Below, in pieces: positions 40,146 through 53,544 of a DNA stretch of 53,544 nt (position 1 is the first letter of the stretch; each line of letters begins with the position of its first letter). Under the pieces are notes generated by a model, which was given only the letters and a program-made list of their open reading frames with translations, made no database searches and was not told the origin of the DNA. The position numbers were made by a program, and so were the translations under genes. Source of the DNA: Candidatus Babelota bacterium (GTDB lineage: Bacteria > Babelota > Babeliae > Babelales > JACPOV01); assembly GCA_022707425.1 (NCBI GenBank), contig JAKJAQ010000004.1:38797-92340 (forward strand). Reading direction: 5' to 3'.

Positions 40146-40682
40146 ATGTCTTTATTCAAAAAATCTATGCTTGCACTTTTAGTTGCAGGAATTTCATTTG
40201 GAAATATTTTTTCGATGAATGATGGTCTTGATCCAATTTTGCTTCGTCAAATGCATGACGATTGTAATATAGAATGTGCAATGGTAAATACTGTTGCTGC
40301 TGCACAAGAACAAGCAGACTTGCTTGATTTGCAAAATTGGGAAGCAAGTAATCCAGCTGATTTTACTTTTCAAATTCCTGGTGTGCTTACCTATGCAAAA
40401 CATTATGCGACAGTTGCTGCACGAAACATACAAACTCAAGCAACAAATTTCTGGTCGAAATTACCAAGTTTTAACACCGTTGCACAATCAGTAAAAGATG
40501 TCGGCTCTTTTGCAAAAGCAAAAGCAGTTGAAAAACCATACGTTGCTGCCGCAATTGTAACTGGAACTATTGCTGCACTTTGTGCTTCAAGACTTGCGTG
40601 GAAGAAATTCTGCAGTAAGCCCCAAGCACAATTGGTTGCACAAGATCGTGCACCACGCTTTAGAGTAACTAATTTAGATTAA
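40146..40682 (+). CDS. Secreted protein of unknown function
   Basis: A 178-residue protein with a signal peptide (SMLALLVAGISFGNIFS, then MND). The mature part is helical; residues 140-160 form a hydrophobic helix (PYVAAAIVTGTIAALCASRLAW) that may be a membrane anchor. GGAGG lies seven bases upstream. It is the first of three small envelope genes (40146, 40715, 41125) on the same strand ending at a common terminator. No family recognised. Confidence 0.65.
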   Translation: MSLFKKSMLALLVAGISFGNIFSMNDGLDPILLRQMHDDCNIECAMVNTVAAAQEQADLLDLQNWEASNPADFTFQIPGVLTYAKHYATVAARNIQTQATNFWSKLPSFNTVAQSVKDVGSFAKAKAVEKPYVAAAIVTGTIAALCASRLAWKKFCSKPQAQLVAQDRAPRFRVTNLD

Positions 40683-43111: not shown

Positions 43112-44677
43112 ATGAGAAAACAATTTCTCATTCCTCTCTTGTTATTAGTAGCAAGCACATCAGTTCTTGCTAATGTTACAAGTCACACGTTCTTCTCTGT
43201 TCGTCCCGTTTTCCAATCTGCGTTTCCAGAAAAAATCACTATGTTCAGAAATAGTCGCGCAAAAGTGGGCGATGATAGCTGGATGGGTGCAATGCAAGCA
43301 GTTGTATTTGGTGGCAGATCAACTAACTCAAAAAAACTAGCACGTTTCTTCTTGCCTTTTGGTAAAGATACATTGGTGTTTGCTGAAAACGGTGCACCAG
43401 CTGCTGGTGGGTTAGTATTCCCTAACGTTGATCCACATTTTAGAGATGTTGCTGCAGAATTTTTTAATATTCAAACAACTGGTGACAACTTCCAAAGTAC
43501 AGTTGCATTCAGACCGCGCCAAACCTACGTTGGTGGTGGATTTGATTGGATCCAATATTTTGGCTGGGGTTGCGATCCATGTGACAAACGCTGGTGGTTT
43601 GAAGTTTCATTCCCCGTTGTCAACGTGCGCAATGAAGTTAAGTTAACAGAATCTATCCAAAGCCAAGGAACTGCACTTAACGCTAGCGTAAATACAAGCG
43701 TTATCGAAGCGTTCGCAGGATTAAAACCATTCTTCAGCCCAAATGCTGGAGTTGCAGGTATTGTTACCGGTTCGCCAATCTTGTTTGGTAAAATTGATGG
43801 CCGCAAATCAAAAACTGGTGTAGCGGATGTCGAAATCAAACTTGGTTATGACTGGGCTTGCGAAGAATGCTACCATGCATACAGCTATATTGGTGTCGTT
43901 GTTCCAACTGGTAACAAACCAAAAGGTGAATTTGTGTTTGAACCAATCGTTGGTAACAATCACCATGTTGGTGTAATGTGGGGCGGCGCATTTGGATTTG
44001 AATTATGGCGCGGTTGTGATGGAAGTAAGAGCATTTGTTGGGAACTTGAAACCAATAGCCGCTACTTATTCCGTAACACACAAACACGTTCTTTTGATTT
44101 AATTAATAAAGAATGGAGTCGCTATCAATTGATATTCGTTAGCCAAGCTGATGCACAAGCTGCTGCAGCAACTGAAGGCATAAACGAATTCACACGAAGA
44201 GTGCGCGTTAAACCTCGCTTCTCATTCGACTTTAATAGCGGACTCGTGTTCACCACTGGTTGTGGATTTGAAGGTGAATTAGGGTATAACTTCTGGGCGC
44301 GTCAAGGTGAAAAAGTAACGCTCAGAGATCCATTCCCAACAACCATAGCACTTTCTTCACTTTTACCAGTTGCTGCTCCAGGTGCAATCAACCGTGCAAT
44401 CACCATTCGTGAAGAATTTGATGGTGCCGATGTTTCATTAGCTGCAAACGCTGCTCAACGCTACACCAACAACCGCATTCAAGAACAAGATATTGACTTC
44501 GGTTCAGCAGCACATCCATGTGCACTTTCACATACCGTTTATGGCTCACTTGGCTTTAACTGGGATTGCATGTGCTGGCCAGTATTTGTTGGCGTTGGCG
44601 GATCATATGAATTTGCATCTTGCAATACCGCTCTTGAACGTTGGATGGTATGGGGCAAACTCGGCGTATCTATCTAA
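43112..44677 (+). CDS. Outer-membrane beta-barrel protein, paralogue 1 (OMP1)
   Basis: A 521-residue protein with a signal peptide (FLIPLLLLVASTSVLA, then NVTSH). It is a paralogue of the proteins at 47252 and 49039 and shares SHxFFSxRxxFQSAxPExxTxFR, QAVVFGGxSTNSKxLARxFLPFxKDTLxFA, GNKPKGEFVFEPIVGNN, RYLFRNTQxRSFDL, and ELGYNFWARQ. The C-terminus (RWMVWGKLGVSI) alternates as a barrel end strand. Cysteine pairs (WGCDPCDKRWW, WACEECYHA) may form disulfides. It is probably a major surface or porin-like protein; no database family can be named. Start 43112 has AAGGAG six bases upstream; the earlier ATG at 43082 does not. Confidence 0.8.
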   Translation: MRKQFLIPLLLLVASTSVLANVTSHTFFSVRPVFQSAFPEKITMFRNSRAKVGDDSWMGAMQAVVFGGRSTNSKKLARFFLPFGKDTLVFAENGAPAAGGLVFPNVDPHFRDVAAEFFNIQTTGDNFQSTVAFRPRQTYVGGGFDWIQYFGWGCDPCDKRWWFEVSFPVVNVRNEVKLTESIQSQGTALNASVNTSVIEAFAGLKPFFSPNAGVAGIVTGSPILFGKIDGRKSKTGVADVEIKLGYDWACEECYHAYSYIGVVVPTGNKPKGEFVFEPIVGNNHHVGVMWGGAFGFELWRGCDGSKSICWELETNSRYLFRNTQTRSFDLINKEWSRYQLIFVSQADAQAAAATEGINEFTRRVRVKPRFSFDFNSGLVFTTGCGFEGELGYNFWARQGEKVTLRDPFPTTIALSSLLPVAAPGAINRAITIREEFDGADVSLAANAAQRYTNNRIQEQDIDFGSAAHPCALSHTVYGSLGFNWDCMCWPVFVGVGGSYEFASCNTALERWMVWGKLGVSI

Positions 44678-44696
44678 GTTAAGCTGAGGAGCAAAA

Positions 44697-45281
44697 ATGA
44701 TGAAACGTTCTTTATTAGTAATAGGATTTTTGCCATTGCTTGCAGTTAATCTGCAAGCAATGGAACGGCCCACACAGGGCTATCCTGGTGTCGCACAAGC
44801 AGTTAGTCAAATCAATCAGCTTATTTCAAAGCGATTTAGAGACCTTGTAACGTCGTACATTAGAGCATTAAATTCTAATCGTCCTGAATCAGAGCTGACA
44901 AAGATGCGCAATGAACTTTCGTCTGAAATGTCTAGTATGGACAATGAAAAAAGCCGAATTGAAGCAAGAATTGCGACAAGTACAGGCGAAGTACGGACGA
45001 GCAATTTAATAAAACAAGCATGGTCAAGATATAACGAATCACTTGATTCATTAAATGCAGGACGTAAAAAAGCTGAAGAAACTTATGGTTCAGGAATGAG
45101 ACGTCCTGGTGAAGGTGGCGAAACTGATCGACCAGCCCGCTACACCATGGATTTTAATGGTGCAAAAGCTATAGCTGGCGATATCAAAACGCAGTTGGCA
45201 TCTGTTCGCGAAGCAGGTAAGGTTTTGTCGTCAGATCAAAAAAAACAGCTTAATGATGCAGCTGGTATAATGATTTTCTGA
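44697..45281 (+). CDS. Secreted helical protein, YTMDF family copy 1
   Basis: A 194-residue protein with a signal peptide (LLVIGFLPLLAVNLQA, then MER). The mature part is helical and charged (ESELTKMRNELSSEMSSMD, then EKSRIEARI). It is a paralogue of the 46520 protein, shown by PESEL, YTMDFxxAKxxAGxIxxxLAxVRxAGKxxSxxQ and a final IF. It lies 19 bases after OMP1 with GAGGAG upstream, so the two form an operon. The coding DNA of the signal peptide holds a perfect 13-bp hairpin. A partner or chaperone of OMP1 is a guess. Confidence 0.75.
   Translation: MMKRSLLVIGFLPLLAVNLQAMERPTQGYPGVAQAVSQINQLISKRFRDLVTSYIRALNSNRPESELTKMRNELSSEMSSMDNEKSRIEARIATSTGEVRTSNLIKQAWSRYNESLDSLNAGRKKAEETYGSGMRRPGEGGETDRPARYTMDFNGAKAIAGDIKTQLASVREAGKVLSSDQKKQLNDAAGIMIF
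44733..44763 (+). promoter_or_regulatory. Perfect 13-bp hairpin inside signal-peptide codons
   Basis: CCATTGCTTGCAG (44733-44745) is the exact reverse complement of CTGCAAGCAATGG (44751-44763) across a TTAAT loop. The right arm includes the Met22 codon (44760-44762), the first residue after the predicted cleavage site. It lies 56 bases after the OMP1 stop and has no T-run. Confidence 0.8.
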
Positions 45282-45305: not shown

Positions 45306-45335
45306 AAGAAGAGAGTTAGCAATAACTCTCTTCTT
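45306..45335 (+). terminator. Terminator-like hairpin after the OMP1 operon
   Basis: AAGAAGAGAGTTA (45306-45318) pairs with TAACTCTCTTCTT (45323-45335) over a GCAA tetraloop. A short T-rich stretch follows. It lies 25 bases after the stop of the 44697 gene and before galE. Confidence 0.8.
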
Positions 45336-45355: not shown

Positions 45356-46372
45356 ATGGACAAACGCACGGTGTTAATTACCGGAGGTGCCGGATACATT
45401 GGTTCGCATATTGCGTATCTTTGTGCACTATCAGGTTATCAAGTTATTGTACTTGATTCGTTTGTTCATAATAATTATTTTGCTCCAAGTTGGGCAACAG
45501 TGATCAAGAGCGATTATGCTAATGCTCATGTGTTGGATTCAATTTTTTCATTACATAAAATCGATGCAGTTATTCATTGTGCTGCTTTCATTGAAGTTGG
45601 TGAATCTGTGCGCGATCCACTGGCATTTTATGACAACAATGTAACTAAAACAGTAACGCTTTTGCAGAAGATGATGCAATGGGGTGTGCATAATTTTATA
45701 TTTTCCTCAAGTTGTGCTGTTTATGGTCAACCGCATTATCTTCCATTAACCGAATCACATCCACAGCAACCAATGAGCCCTTATGGCCACACAAAAGCGA
45801 TGATTGAAAAAATTGTAGAGGATGTGGCACAAGCGCATGGCTTACGTTTTATTGCACTCAGGTATTTTAATGCAGCAGGTGCGTTTCCTGAACAGGGACT
45901 TGGTGAGCTGCATACAAACGAAACACATTTAATACCATTGATGCTTGATGCATTGCTTATGCGCAAACCGTTTACGATTTTTGGAATTGATTATCAAACC
46001 AAAGATGGTACTGCGATTAGAGATTTTGTACATGTGCGCGATATTGCACACGCGCATTTATTAGCACTTGAACACCTTCATCAAGGAAATCCGTCAGACT
46101 GTTTTAATTTAGGAACCGGTGTTGGCTATTCAATTAAAGAAGTTGTTGAAATGATGCAACGCATTTCAGGTATTATGCTTAAAACAATTGTAGCACCGCG
46201 CCGCTTGGGCGATCCTGCTCTATTAATTGCCGATCCACAAAAAGCATTCATGATTCTTAAATGGAAACCACATTATTCACAATTAGAGTTCATTCTCAAA
46301 TCGGCGCTTATTTTTCATAAAGAGTTGTTGCATAAAAAAGAAATGTATTATTCAAGTGCCACTGCATTTTGA
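45356..46372 (+). CDS. galE: UDP-glucose 4-epimerase
   Basis: GalE interconverts UDP-glucose and UDP-galactose with bound NAD. The 338-residue length is normal. Marks are the NAD loop TGGAGYIGSH (residue 9), CAAFIEVGESVRDPLAFYDNN, the catalytic Ser (SSSCAVYG) and YGHTK (Tyr and Lys of YxxxK, about residues 143-147). RYFNAAGA, RDFVHVRDIAHAH and FNLGTGVGYSIKEV follow. AAAGGTAA lies upstream. It sits between OMP1 and OMP2, which suggests it feeds surface glycan or glycosylation; that is inference. UDP-GalNAc or UDP-GlcNAc activity cannot be excluded. Confidence 0.94.
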   Translation: MDKRTVLITGGAGYIGSHIAYLCALSGYQVIVLDSFVHNNYFAPSWATVIKSDYANAHVLDSIFSLHKIDAVIHCAAFIEVGESVRDPLAFYDNNVTKTVTLLQKMMQWGVHNFIFSSSCAVYGQPHYLPLTESHPQQPMSPYGHTKAMIEKIVEDVAQAHGLRFIALRYFNAAGAFPEQGLGELHTNETHLIPLMLDALLMRKPFTIFGIDYQTKDGTAIRDFVHVRDIAHAHLLALEHLHQGNPSDCFNLGTGVGYSIKEVVEMMQRISGIMLKTIVAPRRLGDPALLIADPQKAFMILKWKPHYSQLEFILKSALIFHKELLHKKEMYYSSATAF

Positions 46373-46519: not shown

Positions 46520-47089
46520 ATGAAGAGAGTGCTATTATTAACTTTCTTGGCTATTTGTGCCATTGATGCACACGCAATGGAAAAAAAGACACAACCATTT
46601 ATCAGTGTAAAACAAGTTGTAGGTGCCTATGGTCAAATTTATTCAAAAACATTTCGCGATACGGTTAATGAATTTGTGCGTAAATTAAAAATGAATGCTC
46701 CGGAATCAGAATTACGCAAATTTTCACAAAGATTTCGTGAAGAAGTAGAAGACGCGGACAAAATGGAAAGCGAAATTGCAGCACGCATAAGAGTTTCTCG
46801 CAAAGAAATTGCTGAAAGCCCGCTAATTATGAGCGCAGAAGAGAGATTGAAAGAAAATATTCAAAATGCAACAACTCAAATAGAACGTGCCATGGAAGCT
46901 TATAAAAAAAGAAATCCTGGTTCTAAATTAGGTGCAGAAGAACGTGGTTACACCATGGATTTTACACGAGCAAAAAAAGAAGCTGGCCAAATTAATCAAA
47001 AATTAGCTGCTGTCCGCGATGCAGGTAAAACCTTCAGCAAACAACAGTGTGATGAACTTAACGCGGTTGCGCAAATCGCCATCTTTTAA
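46520..47089 (+). CDS. Secreted helical protein, YTMDF family copy 2
   Basis: A 189-residue protein with a signal peptide (VLLLTFLAICAIDAHA, then MEK). It is a paralogue of the 44697 protein: both share a Phe-Arg-Asp segment (KTFRDTVNEF against KRFRDLVTSY), PESEL, YTMDF, AGKxxSxxQ and a terminal IF. Charged helical stretches (EDADKMESEIAARIRVSRKE) suggest coiled coil. AAGGA precedes the start at nine bases' distance. It has its own promoter and ends at a terminator, so it is a single-gene unit between galE and OMP2. Function unknown. Confidence 0.75.
   Translation: MKRVLLLTFLAICAIDAHAMEKKTQPFISVKQVVGAYGQIYSKTFRDTVNEFVRKLKMNAPESELRKFSQRFREEVEDADKMESEIAARIRVSRKEIAESPLIMSAEERLKENIQNATTQIERAMEAYKKRNPGSKLGAEERGYTMDFTRAKKEAGQINQKLAAVRDAGKTFSKQQCDELNAVAQIAIF
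46560..46580 (+). promoter_or_regulatory. Short hairpin at the signal-peptide end (6 bp)
   Basis: CCATTG (46560-46565) pairs with CAATGG (46575-46580) over nine bases. The right arm covers the Met20 codon, as in the gene at 44697. On its own it is weak; its position makes it notable. Confidence 0.35.
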
Positions 47090-47197: not shown

Positions 47198-47251
47198 AAC
47201 AGAGATTTGAAAAAGTTTTTTATAACACCGATGTGCAATAAAGGAAACATG

Positions 47252-48856
47252 ATGAACAAAATGTGTGTTGGTATTGTTTGCATGTTAATTGCAGTAAGTA
47301 ATAGTGCATATTGCAGCAGTCAAGATGTTAACAGTCATTCTTTCTTTTCTATTCGTTCGCCATTTCAATCAGCTTCACCTGAACGAGTAACTTTGTTTCG
47401 TGATGCACCATTGCTTAATTGCGATCGATATCAAGGTGGCTTACAAGCAGTTGTATTTGGTGGCGAGTCAACTAATTCAAAAGCGTTGGCCCGTTATTTT
47501 CTGCCATTTGATAAAGACACATTAATTTTTGCTAATGACAATGCACCAGGGAGCACGATCGGTGGATTAGAGAATCCGAATTTTAGAGATGTGAATGCAT
47601 TTTTTTTCAATATCCAAACTGTTGCAAACGATTTTAAAAGTACAGTAAAATTCAGCCCACGGCACACGTATGTTGGGCTCGGTCTTGATTGGAAACAATA
47701 TGTTGGCAGTTGCGAATGTGGGCCCAAACGTTGGTGGCTTGAAATTTCATTTCCGATTTTGCATGTACGCAATGAAATCAACTGTATTGAAACAGTTCTA
47801 AATCAAGGTGTCGCGGGAGCTTTCTTGGGGGATGATTTGGGTAATCCACCAGTTGGAGCTAATGAAGTAAATACGAGTGTGTGTGAAGCGTTTAAGGGAC
47901 TGAAACCTTTTTTTGTTGGCGCAGCCAGTGGCGGTGCTGTTACTGGTTCAGGTTTTAAGTTTGGAAAAATTGACGGAGCAAAAAGCAAAACAGGATTAGC
48001 AGATATTGAATTTAAAGTTGGTTATGATTTTGCACAAGAAGAATGTTACCATGGTGATCTTTATGCAGGTATGGTAATTCCTACCGGGAACAAACCGAAA
48101 GGTGAATTTGTTTTTGAACCAATTGTGGGGAACAATCGTCACTTTGCTTTAATGTGGGGCGGTTCGTTTGGATATGAATTGTGGCGCAGCTGTGATGATG
48201 TGCAAGATCTCCGTTTTGAATTTGAAGTTAATGGGCGTTATTTATTTAGAAACACACAAATACGTTCATTTGATTTAGTTGATAAATCGTGGAGCCGGTA
48301 CATGCTCGTGTATCGCGCTTTTGCAAATTCACAAAATGTTACTCCTGAAGAGGGGATCAATGTATTCACTCAAAAATTGCACATTACACCGCGCTATGCG
48401 CAAGATTTCAATTTCGGTTTAGTATACGATATTTGTAATTGGCAAGCAGAAATTGGGTATAATTTCTGGGCACGTCAATCTGAAAAAGCAAAATTAAAAG
48501 AACCGTTCAGCACAACAATAACTTTTCCTGAAGTATCAGCTTCCATAATTTCTGCTGATACCATCAATCGGGCAATCACGATCAAAGAAAACTTTGCAGG
48601 AGCAAATCTTCCTTTAGGTGGTAGTGAATCGTTGTATAATTTAAATGCATGGCAAGAATCTGATCTTAATTTGCATTCAGCAGTAGCGCCCTGTGCAATT
48701 TCTCATATTGTATATGGTTCACTTGGCAGCTACAGCGACCATTGGTGTGATTGCTGGTCGCTCTTTGCAGGAATGGGTGGTTCGTATGAATTTTCATCGG
48801 TCAACACAGCAATCAATCGTTGGATGGTATGGGCAAAAGTTGGTGTATCGGTGTAA
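47252..48856 (+). CDS. Outer-membrane beta-barrel protein, paralogue 2 (OMP2)
   Basis: A 534-residue protein with a signal peptide (VGIVCMLIAVSNSAYC, then SSQD). It is very close to OMP3 for most of its length and more distant from OMP1. It shares the SHSFFSIRSPFQSASPERVT start, EFVFEPIVGNN, RSFDLVDKSWSRYMLV, and the barrel-like end RWMVWAKVGVSV. A segment around residues 190-225 (NQGVAGAFLGDDLGNPPVGA) differs strongly from OMP3 and OMP1. The many Cys residues (SCECGPKRWW, QEECYHGD, ICNWQ, WCDCW) could cross-link the outer membrane. ATGs at 47249 and 47252 both follow AAAGGA; 47252 has the better spacing. Confidence 0.8.
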   Translation: MNKMCVGIVCMLIAVSNSAYCSSQDVNSHSFFSIRSPFQSASPERVTLFRDAPLLNCDRYQGGLQAVVFGGESTNSKALARYFLPFDKDTLIFANDNAPGSTIGGLENPNFRDVNAFFFNIQTVANDFKSTVKFSPRHTYVGLGLDWKQYVGSCECGPKRWWLEISFPILHVRNEINCIETVLNQGVAGAFLGDDLGNPPVGANEVNTSVCEAFKGLKPFFVGAASGGAVTGSGFKFGKIDGAKSKTGLADIEFKVGYDFAQEECYHGDLYAGMVIPTGNKPKGEFVFEPIVGNNRHFALMWGGSFGYELWRSCDDVQDLRFEFEVNGRYLFRNTQIRSFDLVDKSWSRYMLVYRAFANSQNVTPEEGINVFTQKLHITPRYAQDFNFGLVYDICNWQAEIGYNFWARQSEKAKLKEPFSTTITFPEVSASIISADTINRAITIKENFAGANLPLGGSESLYNLNAWQESDLNLHSAVAPCAISHIVYGSLGSYSDHWCDCWSLFAGMGGSYEFSSVNTAINRWMVWAKVGVSV

Positions 48857-49038: not shown

Positions 49039-50634
49039 ATGAATAAGCTACGGATGAGTATGGTACTATATGCACTTGCTATGCTTTGTGGAGTTGCATA
49101 TGGTGGCAGCCAAGATGTTAACAGCCATTCATTTTTTTCTATTCGTTCGCCTTTTCAATCAGCTTCACCTGAGCGAGTGACGCTCTTTCGTGATGCACCG
49201 CTAAAAAATTGTGATGGTTATCAAGGTGGATTGCAGGCAGTTGTATTTGGTGGTAAATCAACAAATTCAAAAGCATTAGCCCGTTATTTCTTGCCATTTG
49301 ATAAAGATACGTTAATTTTTGCAAACGATGATGCACCAGGAAGTTTGGTAAATGGATTAGCAAACCCAAACTTTAGAGATGTGAATGCATTCTTTTTCAA
49401 TATTCAAACGGTTAACAACGATTTCAAAAGTACTGTAAAATTCAGACCGCATCATAGTTACGTTGGATTGGGTCTAGATTGGAAGCAATATGTTGGCAAT
49501 TGCGAATGCGGACCCAAAAGATGGTGGTTTGAGGTTTCATTTCCCATTTTGCATGTACGCAATGAAATAAAATGCACCGAAACAATTCAAAATCAAGGTA
49601 TTACTGGGTTTGGCGTTGAAGGCGAACTGGTACCAGGAACTGAGCTTTTGGTGAATGACAGTGTGTGTGAAGCTTTCAAAGGGTTAAAACCATTTTTTGA
49701 TGGTAGTGGTAATGTTGTTACGGGTTCTGGTTTCAAATTTGGTAAAATTGATGGCGCAAAAAGCAGAACTGGTGTTGCAGATATTGAACTGAAAGTTGGC
49801 TACGATTTTGCCCAAGAAGAGTGTTACCACGGTGACCTGTACGTAGGTGTGGTAATTCCAACAGGTAATAAACCAAAAGGTGAGTTTGTTTTCGAACCAA
49901 TTGTTGGTAATAATCGTCACTTTGCATTAATGTGGGGTGGTTCGTTTGGGTATGAATTGTGGCGCAGCTGTGATGACACGCGAGACTTGCGTTTTGAATT
50001 TGAAATAAATGGTCGTTATTTATTCCGTAATACACAAACACGCTCATTTGATTTAGTAGATAAATCATGGAGCCGGTACATGCTCGTGTTTCGTGAATTT
50101 GCAAATTCGCAAAACGGTACAGCAGAAGAAGGTATCAACGTATTTACTCAAAAATTGCACATTACACCACGCTATGCACAAGATTTCAATTTTGGTCTAG
50201 TATATGACTGGTGTGACTGGCAAGCAGAACTTGGATATAATTTCTGGGCACGGCAATCTGAAAAAGCAAAATTAAAAGAGCCATTCAGCACAACCATTAC
50301 CTTCCCAGATGTATCAGGTGGTACGATTGCACAAGCAATTAATCGCGCAATTACCATTAAGGAAAACTTTGCAGGAGCAATTCTTAATATTGGTGCAGGA
50401 GATCAGGCATTGTATAACTTAAATGCTTGGCAAGAATCGGATCTTAACTTGCACTCAGCGGTAGCTCCATGCGCAATTTCTCATATTGTGTATGGTTCTC
50501 TTGGTAGATCATGGGACAACTGGTGCGGATGCTGGCCATTGTTTGCTGGAATTGGCGGTTCATATGAATTTTCATCAGTTAATACCGCAATCAATCGCTG
50601 GATGGTATGGGGCAAAGTTGGCATATCGATCTAA
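49039..50634 (+). CDS. Outer-membrane beta-barrel protein, paralogue 3 (OMP3)
   Basis: A 531-residue protein with a signal peptide (MVLYALAMLCGVAYG, then GSQD). It is near-identical to OMP2 over long stretches (SQDVNSHSFFSIRSPFQSAS, then PERVTLFRDAPL) but differs in the segment around residues 190-220 (GVEGELVPGTELLVND) and near residues 440-460 (GAGDQALYN). It keeps the Cys pairs and the barrel-like end RWMVWGKVGISI. AAGGAG lies five bases before the ATG at 49039; the frame from 49009 lacks a good site. It is followed by a secreted gene after 27 bases. Confidence 0.8.
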   Translation: MNKLRMSMVLYALAMLCGVAYGGSQDVNSHSFFSIRSPFQSASPERVTLFRDAPLKNCDGYQGGLQAVVFGGKSTNSKALARYFLPFDKDTLIFANDDAPGSLVNGLANPNFRDVNAFFFNIQTVNNDFKSTVKFRPHHSYVGLGLDWKQYVGNCECGPKRWWFEVSFPILHVRNEIKCTETIQNQGITGFGVEGELVPGTELLVNDSVCEAFKGLKPFFDGSGNVVTGSGFKFGKIDGAKSRTGVADIELKVGYDFAQEECYHGDLYVGVVIPTGNKPKGEFVFEPIVGNNRHFALMWGGSFGYELWRSCDDTRDLRFEFEINGRYLFRNTQTRSFDLVDKSWSRYMLVFREFANSQNGTAEEGINVFTQKLHITPRYAQDFNFGLVYDWCDWQAELGYNFWARQSEKAKLKEPFSTTITFPDVSGGTIAQAINRAITIKENFAGAILNIGAGDQALYNLNAWQESDLNLHSAVAPCAISHIVYGSLGRSWDNWCGCWPLFAGIGGSYEFSSVNTAINRWMVWGKVGISI

Positions 50635-50661: not shown

Positions 50662-51276
50662 ATGTTAAAGACAACTTTAGTTTTGGCAGGTGTATTGGCG
50701 ATGCTTTCAGGCATCGCCAATGGCATGAATTTTGAAACGGCAAAACAAGCACAAGTACAGCTACAAATGTTTGTCATCGATGAAAAAGATGAAAAAAAAG
50801 CGATGGATAAGTGGGCCCTTTTTACACAACGCTTATCGAATATGTCAGATAAATTTATAGAGCGAGTAACAGAGAGCAACGAATTTAAATCTGCACGAGA
50901 AAGAATAGATAAATCATTACGAAGAACGCCAAACGCAGATATTAGATTTGAACCCGATTATATTATATTAATGGTTGCACACAAAAGATTGCCATCAATG
51001 GCAAATAAGCCATCTGATCTACAAAAATTTGTGCATTATTATGAAAAATTAAAAGAGAAAGTTGATAATAAAGAACTTACTGATTCTAAGAAGGTCCTCA
51101 GAAAATATGATCGCGATTACAAAAAAGTAAAAAATCGTTTAAAAGCAGAATTCAATATTACCATGAATGAAGTTGCAAAACAACTTGATGCAATGAGTTT
51201 TCAAATTGAACAACTGCGCATGGTGATTGAAGATTCATCAACTTCGTGGCGAAAACCAACTGCAAAACTTAACTAA
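50662..51276 (+). CDS. Secreted helical protein downstream of OMP3
   Basis: A 204-residue protein with a signal peptide (TLVLAGVLAMLSGIANG, then MNF). The mature part is highly charged and helical with Lys/Asp/Glu-rich coiled-coil stretches (KLKEKVDNKELTDSKKVL, NEVAKQLDAMSFQIEQLR). It takes the same place after OMP3 as the 44697 gene does after OMP1. It lacks the YTMDF motif and may be unrelated. GGAGA precedes the start. The codons of its signal peptide contain a perfect 11-bp hairpin. The operon ends at the terminator at 51303. Confidence 0.7.
   Translation: MLKTTLVLAGVLAMLSGIANGMNFETAKQAQVQLQMFVIDEKDEKKAMDKWALFTQRLSNMSDKFIERVTESNEFKSARERIDKSLRRTPNADIRFEPDYIILMVAHKRLPSMANKPSDLQKFVHYYEKLKEKVDNKELTDSKKVLRKYDRDYKKVKNRLKAEFNITMNEVAKQLDAMSFQIEQLRMVIEDSSTSWRKPTAKLN
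50694..50721 (+). promoter_or_regulatory. Perfect 11-bp hairpin inside signal-peptide codons
   Basis: ATTGGCGATGC (50694-50704) is the exact reverse complement of GCATCGCCAAT (50711-50721) over a TTTCAG loop. It ends four bases before the Met22 codon, the predicted first mature residue. It lies 60 bases after the OMP3 stop. Confidence 0.8.
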
Positions 51277-51302
51277 CTATTTTTAGTTAAACTTGATCTA
51301 AT

Positions 51303-51332
51303 AAAAAGGCCCTCGTAATTGAGGGCCTTTTT
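51303..51332. terminator. Bidirectional rho-independent terminator
   Basis: AAAAAGGCCCTC (51303-51314) pairs with GAGGGCCTTTTT (51321-51332) over GTAATT. It serves the OMP3 operon on the plus strand and secA on the minus strand. Confidence 0.93.
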
Positions 51333-53544
51333 ATTTACCGTGACATTTTTTGTACTTTTTACCTGAGCCGCATGGACATAAGTCATTGCGTCCAACTTCG
51401 GGCTGCGATTTGCGCACTGGAGTTTGCGCAACAGCACCAGTTGGTTCCTGCGGTCCTGATTCACCAGAAATTAAATTAATTTGATTCAGTTCACGTTGGC
51501 GTTTTTGCTCAAGCTCTGTTTGATTGAATCGCTCAAGATTAAGATGGAAAATATGATTGATAATTTCAAAGCGTACGCTTTTCATCATATCTTGGAACAT
51601 ATAAAATGCTTCTCGCTTGTATTCAATGAGCGGGTTCTTTTGGCCCCAGCCACGTAAACCTATTCCTTCTTTGAGATTATCCAAATTGAGCATGTGTTGT
51701 TTCCAAGCTTGATCGATGGTTTCTAACATGAGCCATTTTTCAGCTTGGTGCAATGCTTCATCGGGCGTGCGATTGTGATAGAGATCATATTTTAATAATA
51801 AGAAATCAATTATTTGCGTTTGCAGTGCATCGCTATTTGTTTTATTAAACGATTCTTTTTCGATTGCATCTTGTGCAAGACCAGTGATTGCACTAATAAT
51901 GTGCATAATATGGTCATATCCTTCCTTAGCAAGAGTGCGGCCTTGGCTAAATTCTGCAACTAAATCTTGCACAGTTGTAGCTATTAAATCTCGGACTAAT
52001 AATGTAATTTGTTCTTCGCCTTCTAAAATTGAACGGCGGTAACCATAAACAACTAATCGTTGCTGATTGAGTACATCATCATACTCTAAAAGTTGGCGAC
52101 GAATTTCAAAATTATGCTTCTCAACTTTTTCTTGTGAACGTTCAATTGTTTTTGAAATGAACTTTGATTCAATTTGTTCATCTTCGGTCATGCCAAAACG
52201 TTGCATATTTTTTTTGATACCATCGCCGGCAAAAATGCGAATGAGATCATCTTCTAATGAAATATAAAAACGTGACTCACCAGGATCACCTTGGCGACCA
52301 GAGCGTCCACGAAGCTGATTGTCAATGCGACGACTTTCATGCCGTTCTGTACCTAAAATGTACAGACCGCCAGTTTCTACCGATTGCGGAGTTAGTTTGA
52401 TATCAGTACCGCGTCCTGCCATGTTTGTTGCAATAGTAACATGACCAACTTCTCCAGCATGTGCAACAATATCTGCTTCGCGTGCATGTTGTTTTGCGTT
52501 GAGAACATCGTGCGGAATATGACTTGCAGATAAAATTGAACTTAATAGTTCAGATGTTTCAATTGCAATCGTACCAATTAAAACAGGTTGGCCTTTTTTG
52601 TGCCGTTCTTTAATATCTTCAACAATAGCTTTGTATTTTGCTGTTTTTGTTAAAAAGATTATATCAGGTTTATCAAGACGAATCATTGCACGGTGAGTTG
52701 GCACACTAATAACATCAAGTTTATAAATTTTGTGAAATTCTTCTGATTCGGTCATTGCTGTACCGGTCATGCCAGCTAATTTTTTGTACATGCGGAAATA
52801 ATTTTGCAAGGTAATCGAAGCAAGTGTTTGTGTTTCACGTTCAATCGTGACACCTTCTTTTGCTTCAAGTGCTTGATGCAAACCATCGCTGTAGCGTCTG
52901 CCAGACAAAATGCGACCGGTAAACTCATCAACAATTAATACTTCATCATCTTTTACAACATAATCAACATCGCGCTTGAAAAGCACATGTGCTCGCAGAG
53001 CTTGATTGACATGATGGAGTAAGTTAAGGTTTTTAATATCGTATAAATTTTCCACGCCAAGAGCAGATTCAACTTTATCAATACCAGCTTCGGTTAGTTG
53101 TGTTGTGCGTTGTTTTTCATCGACTTCGTAATCAGTAGTTGCTTTAAGGCGGGGAATAATAGTATTTACTTCAATATATAAATTGCTTGATTTATCAGCT
53201 GCACCAGAAATAATAAGCGGTGTGCGAGCTTCGTCGATTAAAATTGAGTCAACTTCATCAACGATTCCATAAAACAGTTCACCTTGCACATAATCTTCAA
53301 GGCGAAACTTCATATTATCACGTAAATAATCAAACCCAAATTCGTTATTGGTGCCGTAGGTAATATCACAAGCATATGCTTTTTTGCGTTCAACATCGGT
53401 CATCTTATTTTGAATAATGCCAATGGTAAGCCCGAGACTTTCATAAATGGGTGACATCCATTCAGCATCGCGACGTGCTAAATAATCGTTCACGGTAATT
53501 AAATGAGCACCTTTGCCCGGAAGTGAATTCAAATATAATGCAAG
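51331..53544 (-). CDS. secA: Preprotein translocase ATPase SecA (N-terminus cut by window edge)
   Basis: SecA pushes unfolded signal-peptide proteins through SecYEG with ATP. The window holds 737 codons; about 85-100 N-terminal residues including Walker A lie beyond the edge, as the frame is open to base 53544. Visible marks are [37 protein letters not shown] (Walker B), then the preprotein cross-linking part, [26 protein letters not shown] (motif VI) and the helical scaffold. The SEC-C zinc tail [17 protein letters not shown] is complete. An export motor fits the large number of signal-peptide proteins here. Confidence 0.97.

Follow-up and report, generated by a model that had tools for sequence, protein, structure and literature searches.

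A perfect 13-bp hairpin lies within the signal peptide (SP) codons of a gene that directly follows OMP1, a presumed outer-membrane protein gene of Candidatus Babeliales (Dependentiae, TM6), a deeply diverged and almost uncultured phylum of intracellular parasites. The question is whether this hairpin serves the message of the outer-membrane protein, serves the gene in which it is written, or serves nothing at all.

The locus and its hairpins

The window (the whole stretch of DNA analysed, 53,544 nucleotides) belongs to a genome of 1.03 Mb in 20 contigs and holds three OMP genes that form one family, at 43112-44677, at about 47246-48856 and at about 49039-50634. The label OMP derives from an earlier naming and the general character of the proteins and has no database match behind it; neither OMP1 nor the OMP followers matched a Pfam or NCBIfam family. 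The OMP1 family is present in all 49 relatives searched. The relevant features are as follows.

43112-44677, + strand: OMP1, presumed outer-membrane protein gene (ORF)
44678-44696, + strand: OMP1/follower junction, 19 nt, with Shine-Dalgarno-like GAGGAG (sequence)
44697-45281, + strand: follower gene, 194 aa, presumed secreted, with SP, of no known family (ORF)
44733-44745, + strand: left arm of the hairpin (sequence)
44746-44750, + strand: hairpin loop TTAAT, 5 nt (sequence)
44751-44763, + strand: right arm, containing ATG 44760-44762 (sequence)
45306-45335, + strand: 13-bp hairpin 3' of the stop of the 44697 follower, probable end of the OMP1 operon (inverted-repeat listing)
49039-50634, + strand: OMP3, presumed outer-membrane protein gene 5' of the second hairpin (ORF)
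50662-51276, + strand: OMP3 follower, SP protein, family unassigned by Pfam/NCBIfam (ORF)
50694-50721, + strand: second post-OMP hairpin, 11 bp with a 6-nt loop, extending with one bulge to 50690-50726 (sequence)

The geometry given by the original prediction is accurate in every respect. The two arms form Watson-Crick pairs at 13 of 13 positions, with no G-U pair. The left arm starts at +56 counted from the end of OMP1 (44677), which is nucleotide 37 of the follower. By eye, the SP is likely cleaved at ...LQA↓M, so that the ATG in the right arm would be the codon of the first mature residue. The claim that such a stem is rare by chance in coding DNA also stands. When codons are varied under an unchanged protein, between 0.12% (window codon use) and 0.44% (own-codon permutation) of the resulting sequences form a stem of this length, and only two perfect stems of at least 13 bp (loop 3-10) occur in coding sequence in 752 kb of the bacterium's own genome, a sample taken as stretches. 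Comparison with shuffled versions, which had been proposed as a check, agrees: the RNA of 44700-44800 folds at -34.7 kcal/mol (z -3.5), a stability reached by none of 200 shuffles, and 44697 ranks first of the 247 SP genes in the own-genome sample for structure beyond synonymous resampling (z -4.9), the SP genes being those flagged by a home-made caller that marks about a third of ORFs, on gene calls that are likewise simple.

No T-tract is found behind 44733-44763 (AACGGCCC). From 44764 on (AACGGCCCAC), the eight nucleotides after the stem contain no T, so the T-run of an intrinsic terminator is missing, and the hairpin is not among the terminator-like sites of the terminator scan, from which the 45306-45335 hairpin is also absent. 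A mobile or repeated element as the origin is rejected, because the 31-nt hairpin sequence occurs only once in the genome. At the far end of the OMP3 follower, a perfect 15-bp hairpin (51300-51335) between the convergent ends of 50662-51276 and secA is probably a two-way terminator.

Hairpins at the same relative place had also been reported in the genes at 50662 and 46520, and only the first of these holds up. The 11-bp hairpin of 50662 has a P of 0.00125 by codon resampling and ranks fifth of the 247 SP starts (z -3.0), while the 6 bp of 46520 are what chance would give (P 0.27 in the same resampling; z +1.2 for structure at the gene start). Among 727 sampled ORFs, three begin a perfect stem of 11 bp or more within their first 110 nt. 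Two of these are 44697 and 50662, the only SP genes with such a stem, and both lie directly behind an OMP. The 46520 gene, paralogous to 44697 at 41-43% identity, lies behind galE with a gap of 147 nt and is unstructured. Since both OMP followers carry stems and this galE-following paralogue carries none, the upstream OMP, rather than the SP or the protein family, is indicated as the reason for the hairpin.

Several other features of these genes were seen in passing. Met appears to be over-represented at mature position +1, as SPs here often end right before a Met codon (QA↓ME, HA↓ME, NG↓MN and FS↓MN at 44760, 46577, 50725 and in gene 40146-40682). OMP1 itself has a perfect 8-bp stem beginning at its ATG (43112-43131, ATGAGAAA/TTTCTCAT) that could mask the start codon, and in the relatives G003 and G001 the followers (L006, L007; 3118-3143) also have a perfect 8-bp stem from the ATG (ATGAAGAA/TTCTTCAT), where start-codon masking is likewise possible. 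A galE-like sugar-nucleotide epimerase gene (45356-46372 here) follows or adjoins OMP genes in several distant genomes (L091, L094, L096, L104); in L104, a 15-bp hairpin lies between the two.

Recurrence behind OMP genes in related genomes

Since the idea of a link to the OMP was formed after the window data had been seen, it was tested on other genomes. The survey covers about 100 related genomes. For each OMP stop with a same-strand next gene, it takes the 40-nt segment with the most stable fold from the 150 nt that follow. Dinucleotide shuffles serve as the null and other gene junctions, drawn from fewer genomes than the OMP junctions, as controls. In the first set, 52 OMP junctions have a mean z of -2.0 versus -0.59 in 575 controls (P 4e-5; this and the other P values of the survey are optimistic because the genomes are related). 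Where the next gene lies within 40 nt, z is -3 or lower at 10 of 41 OMP junctions and 29 of 442 others. A separate set of the same order (G049-G100), treated by the same procedure, gives 7 of 20 versus 29 of 442 (Fisher 3.6e-4, MWU 3.9e-5). With the window's own two left out, this threshold is reached at 15 of 59 tight OMP junctions versus 5 of 135 other SP-gene junctions (Fisher 1.8e-5) and 1 of 56 SP-to-SP junctions (Fisher 1.6e-4). A strong hairpin is present at roughly one in four tight OMP junctions, and about three quarters, in many families, are without one. Having an SP makes no difference by itself: without an OMP upstream, SP followers show no more structure than other genes, and a general property of SP codons is therefore rejected as the source of the structure.

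The synonymous-codon test across OMP followers gives a weak excess (P 0.04 versus SP controls overall, 0.08 in the replication set); an earlier version, applied to the first set, had given P 0.001 versus all controls and 0.028 versus operon-internal SP genes. As the excess is weak with protein and codon use fixed, the amino-acid sequence itself accounts for much of the pairing. Either the amino acids have adapted to the pairing, as the loose constraint on SPs would allow, or composition explains part of the excess.

Closer relatives give a mixed picture. According to the original prediction, orthologues that keep the protein and lose the pairing would speak against a function, and, taken literally, this is the case in G001 and G003, where the followers have no strong hairpin at the corresponding place. 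In G002, whose OMP1 is 69% identical, the follower lies 14 nt behind OMP1 and again has a hairpin at this position, though with another sequence; it consists of 9 bp and 8 more on the outside (z about -3). In G004, an 18-bp terminator-like hairpin lies between OMP1 and the next gene, so that a hairpin follows OMP1 in three of the five genomes of the family. The pairing among OMP1 followers is not conserved base by base. The followers of G000 (44697), G001, G002 and G003 and the gene at 46520 have a common C-terminal motif, the rest being divergent, and a search of genome contigs found no relatives of 44697. Because these downstream proteins diverge fast (43-18% identity), covariation within the same stem is impossible to assess in orthologues. 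A suggestive stem match between L082 and L216, from two species of one genus, depends on very weak protein homology and is left out of the argument. It is the position of the hairpin, not its sequence, that recurs behind OMPs across the clade.

Position and possible functions

In tight junctions with a gap of 0-30 nt (45 OMP, 244 control), excess structure peaks at +46 to +85 after the OMP stop (-8.8 versus -5.0 kcal/mol, P 1.2e-5), while +1 to +40, the region of the ribosome-binding site, is less structured than in the controls. Most hairpins of tight junctions start at +44 to +56, often at ATG+24 to ATG+36, which places them within the SP codons, a little beyond the ribosome-binding site. 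In wide junctions (gap 36-97 nt), the hairpins are intergenic and mostly start at +4 to +32. Since the hairpin is intergenic where the gap is wide and in SP codons where it is tight, it appears to belong to the 3' end of the OMP mRNA. Several hairpins contain G-U pairs (for example L100), and folding is slightly more stable for the sense strand than for the antisense strand (P 0.04), which favours a function in RNA rather than in DNA.

By analogy with E. coli, the hairpin may be a barrier to 3'-to-5' decay of the OMP1 mRNA that is coded inside the SP codons of the next gene, a reading to which an even chance is given. The hairpin would be an RNA element of the OMP1 message, placed within the SP codons of 44697 because the junction has only 19 nt and its ribosome-binding site must stay open. 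We infer that the two genes are co-transcribed, that an endonuclease would cut in the less protected follower mRNA, and that 3'-to-5' exonucleases would then be stopped by the hairpin, so that the OMP1 mRNA would persist and one operon could make more OMP than follower protein. A decay barrier would be expected to appear as a stable hairpin at the end of the upstream gene, above background and with no uridine tract behind the stem, in a genome that encodes a 3'-to-5' exonuclease and an mRNA endonuclease. All of this is found for 44733-44763, the enzymes being PNPase and RNase E/G (both above curated cut-offs). Several points speak against a decay barrier: ribosomes translating the follower would open a stem that lies in its reading frame, strong hairpins are missing from most tight OMP junctions and from G001 and G003, the synonymous-codon excess is weak, and some intergenic cases (L008, L161, L176, L240) resemble terminators. 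Of the four functions offered by the original prediction, protection of the 3' end of OMP1 mRNA is the best supported, as the hairpins track the OMP, keep a set distance, are intergenic when there is room and mostly have no T-tract. A broader proposal, which falls somewhat short of an even chance, is that OMP operons across the Babeliales have evolved such a protective 3' hairpin again and again from unrelated sequence, as a dual-coded element about +50 nt from the OMP stop, in the SP codons of whichever gene follows. Near the PNPase question lies a separate observation: in G000:C11:133990-135060 (L112-L115), a single 616-aa frame matches the C-terminal region of PNPase weakly and several times over, a pattern that probably reflects the tandem S1 domains of ribosomal protein S1.

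The hairpin could instead act on the follower, slowing early elongation just past the footprint of the initiating ribosome and so lowering the yield of the second protein. The frequent start of tight-junction stems at ATG+24 to ATG+36, with the ribosome-binding site itself open, suits such an action, which would shift protein ratios in the same direction as a decay barrier. The lower expression of the second gene that had been suggested is thus compatible with the data, but it leaves the intergenic cases unexplained, since wide-junction hairpins sit upstream of the follower's ribosome-binding site and could not act in this way. SP genes not behind an OMP lack such a hairpin, and this action is unlikely.

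Somewhat less probable is a functionless by-product, in which freely drifting SP codons acquired a long stem by quasi-palindrome mutation or chance. About one codon-resampled version in 800 still yields a stem of 13 bp or more, so that one case among about 250 SP genes is unremarkable, and the weak synonymous-codon excess across OMP followers points the same way. Chance does not explain, however, why both SP genes with such stems are OMP followers, or why the OMP association replicates in other genomes at a set position.

A transcription attenuator, at which part of the RNA polymerases would stop after the OMP gene, alone or with Rho, has a smaller chance again. The bacterium's own genome has a Rho gene and the intergenic versions in L008, L161, L176 and L240 are terminator-like. 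However, comparable structures in E. coli were not termination sites (PMC5927463), and a T-run is absent behind 44733-44763 and behind most surveyed hairpins, including most of the SP-embedded ones.

It is very improbable that the stem pauses translation for SP recognition or masks an internal start at ATG 44760, as had also been suggested: it does overlap the SP cleavage-site codons and the in-frame ATG, but no Shine-Dalgarno is visible before that ATG, other SP genes show no excess of structure, and, by general ribosome geometry, only about 9-18 residues would have been made when the stem is reached, none of them yet outside the tunnel, so that a stall would precede the exit of the SP.

Known systems and significance

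The arrangement proposed for the decay barrier is probably one already known from E. coli, of which the Babeliales case would be a further instance. In the differential operonic mRNA decay of E. coli, demonstrated by RNA half-lives and 3' ends, a stable hairpin lacking a U-tract marks the end of 26 of the 34 5' genes that are stabilised. In 17 of these 26 cases it falls within the coding sequence of the next gene, at a mean distance of 107 +/- 56 nt into that gene (PMC5927463). The Babeliales hairpins are similar in being stable, soon after the stop of the 5' gene, in the next frame and without a U-tract, but they are predictions and lie mostly 24-36 nt in, in SP codons. The malE-malF hairpin of E. 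coli also lies behind the gene of an exported protein and stops 3'-to-5' exonucleases; it is intergenic and proven, unlike the one proposed here, which is inside coding sequence at tight junctions (PMC5927463). Another junction hairpin, between arsC and arsD of the ars1 operon of Bacillus sp. CDB3, cuts expression of the operon remainder; that case is experimental and from an unrelated operon, and its abstract does not describe the hairpin as within SP codons (PMC4562236).

If the OMP hairpins are indeed decay barriers, differential operon decay would extend to this remote phylum of intracellular parasites, which has hardly been cultured, and it would explain how one operon could give OMP in excess of its neighbour protein. 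Loosely constrained SP codons would then serve as a site for encoding RNA structure, and structure at +46 to +85 after the OMP stop would provide a computational handle for any new Babeliales genome.
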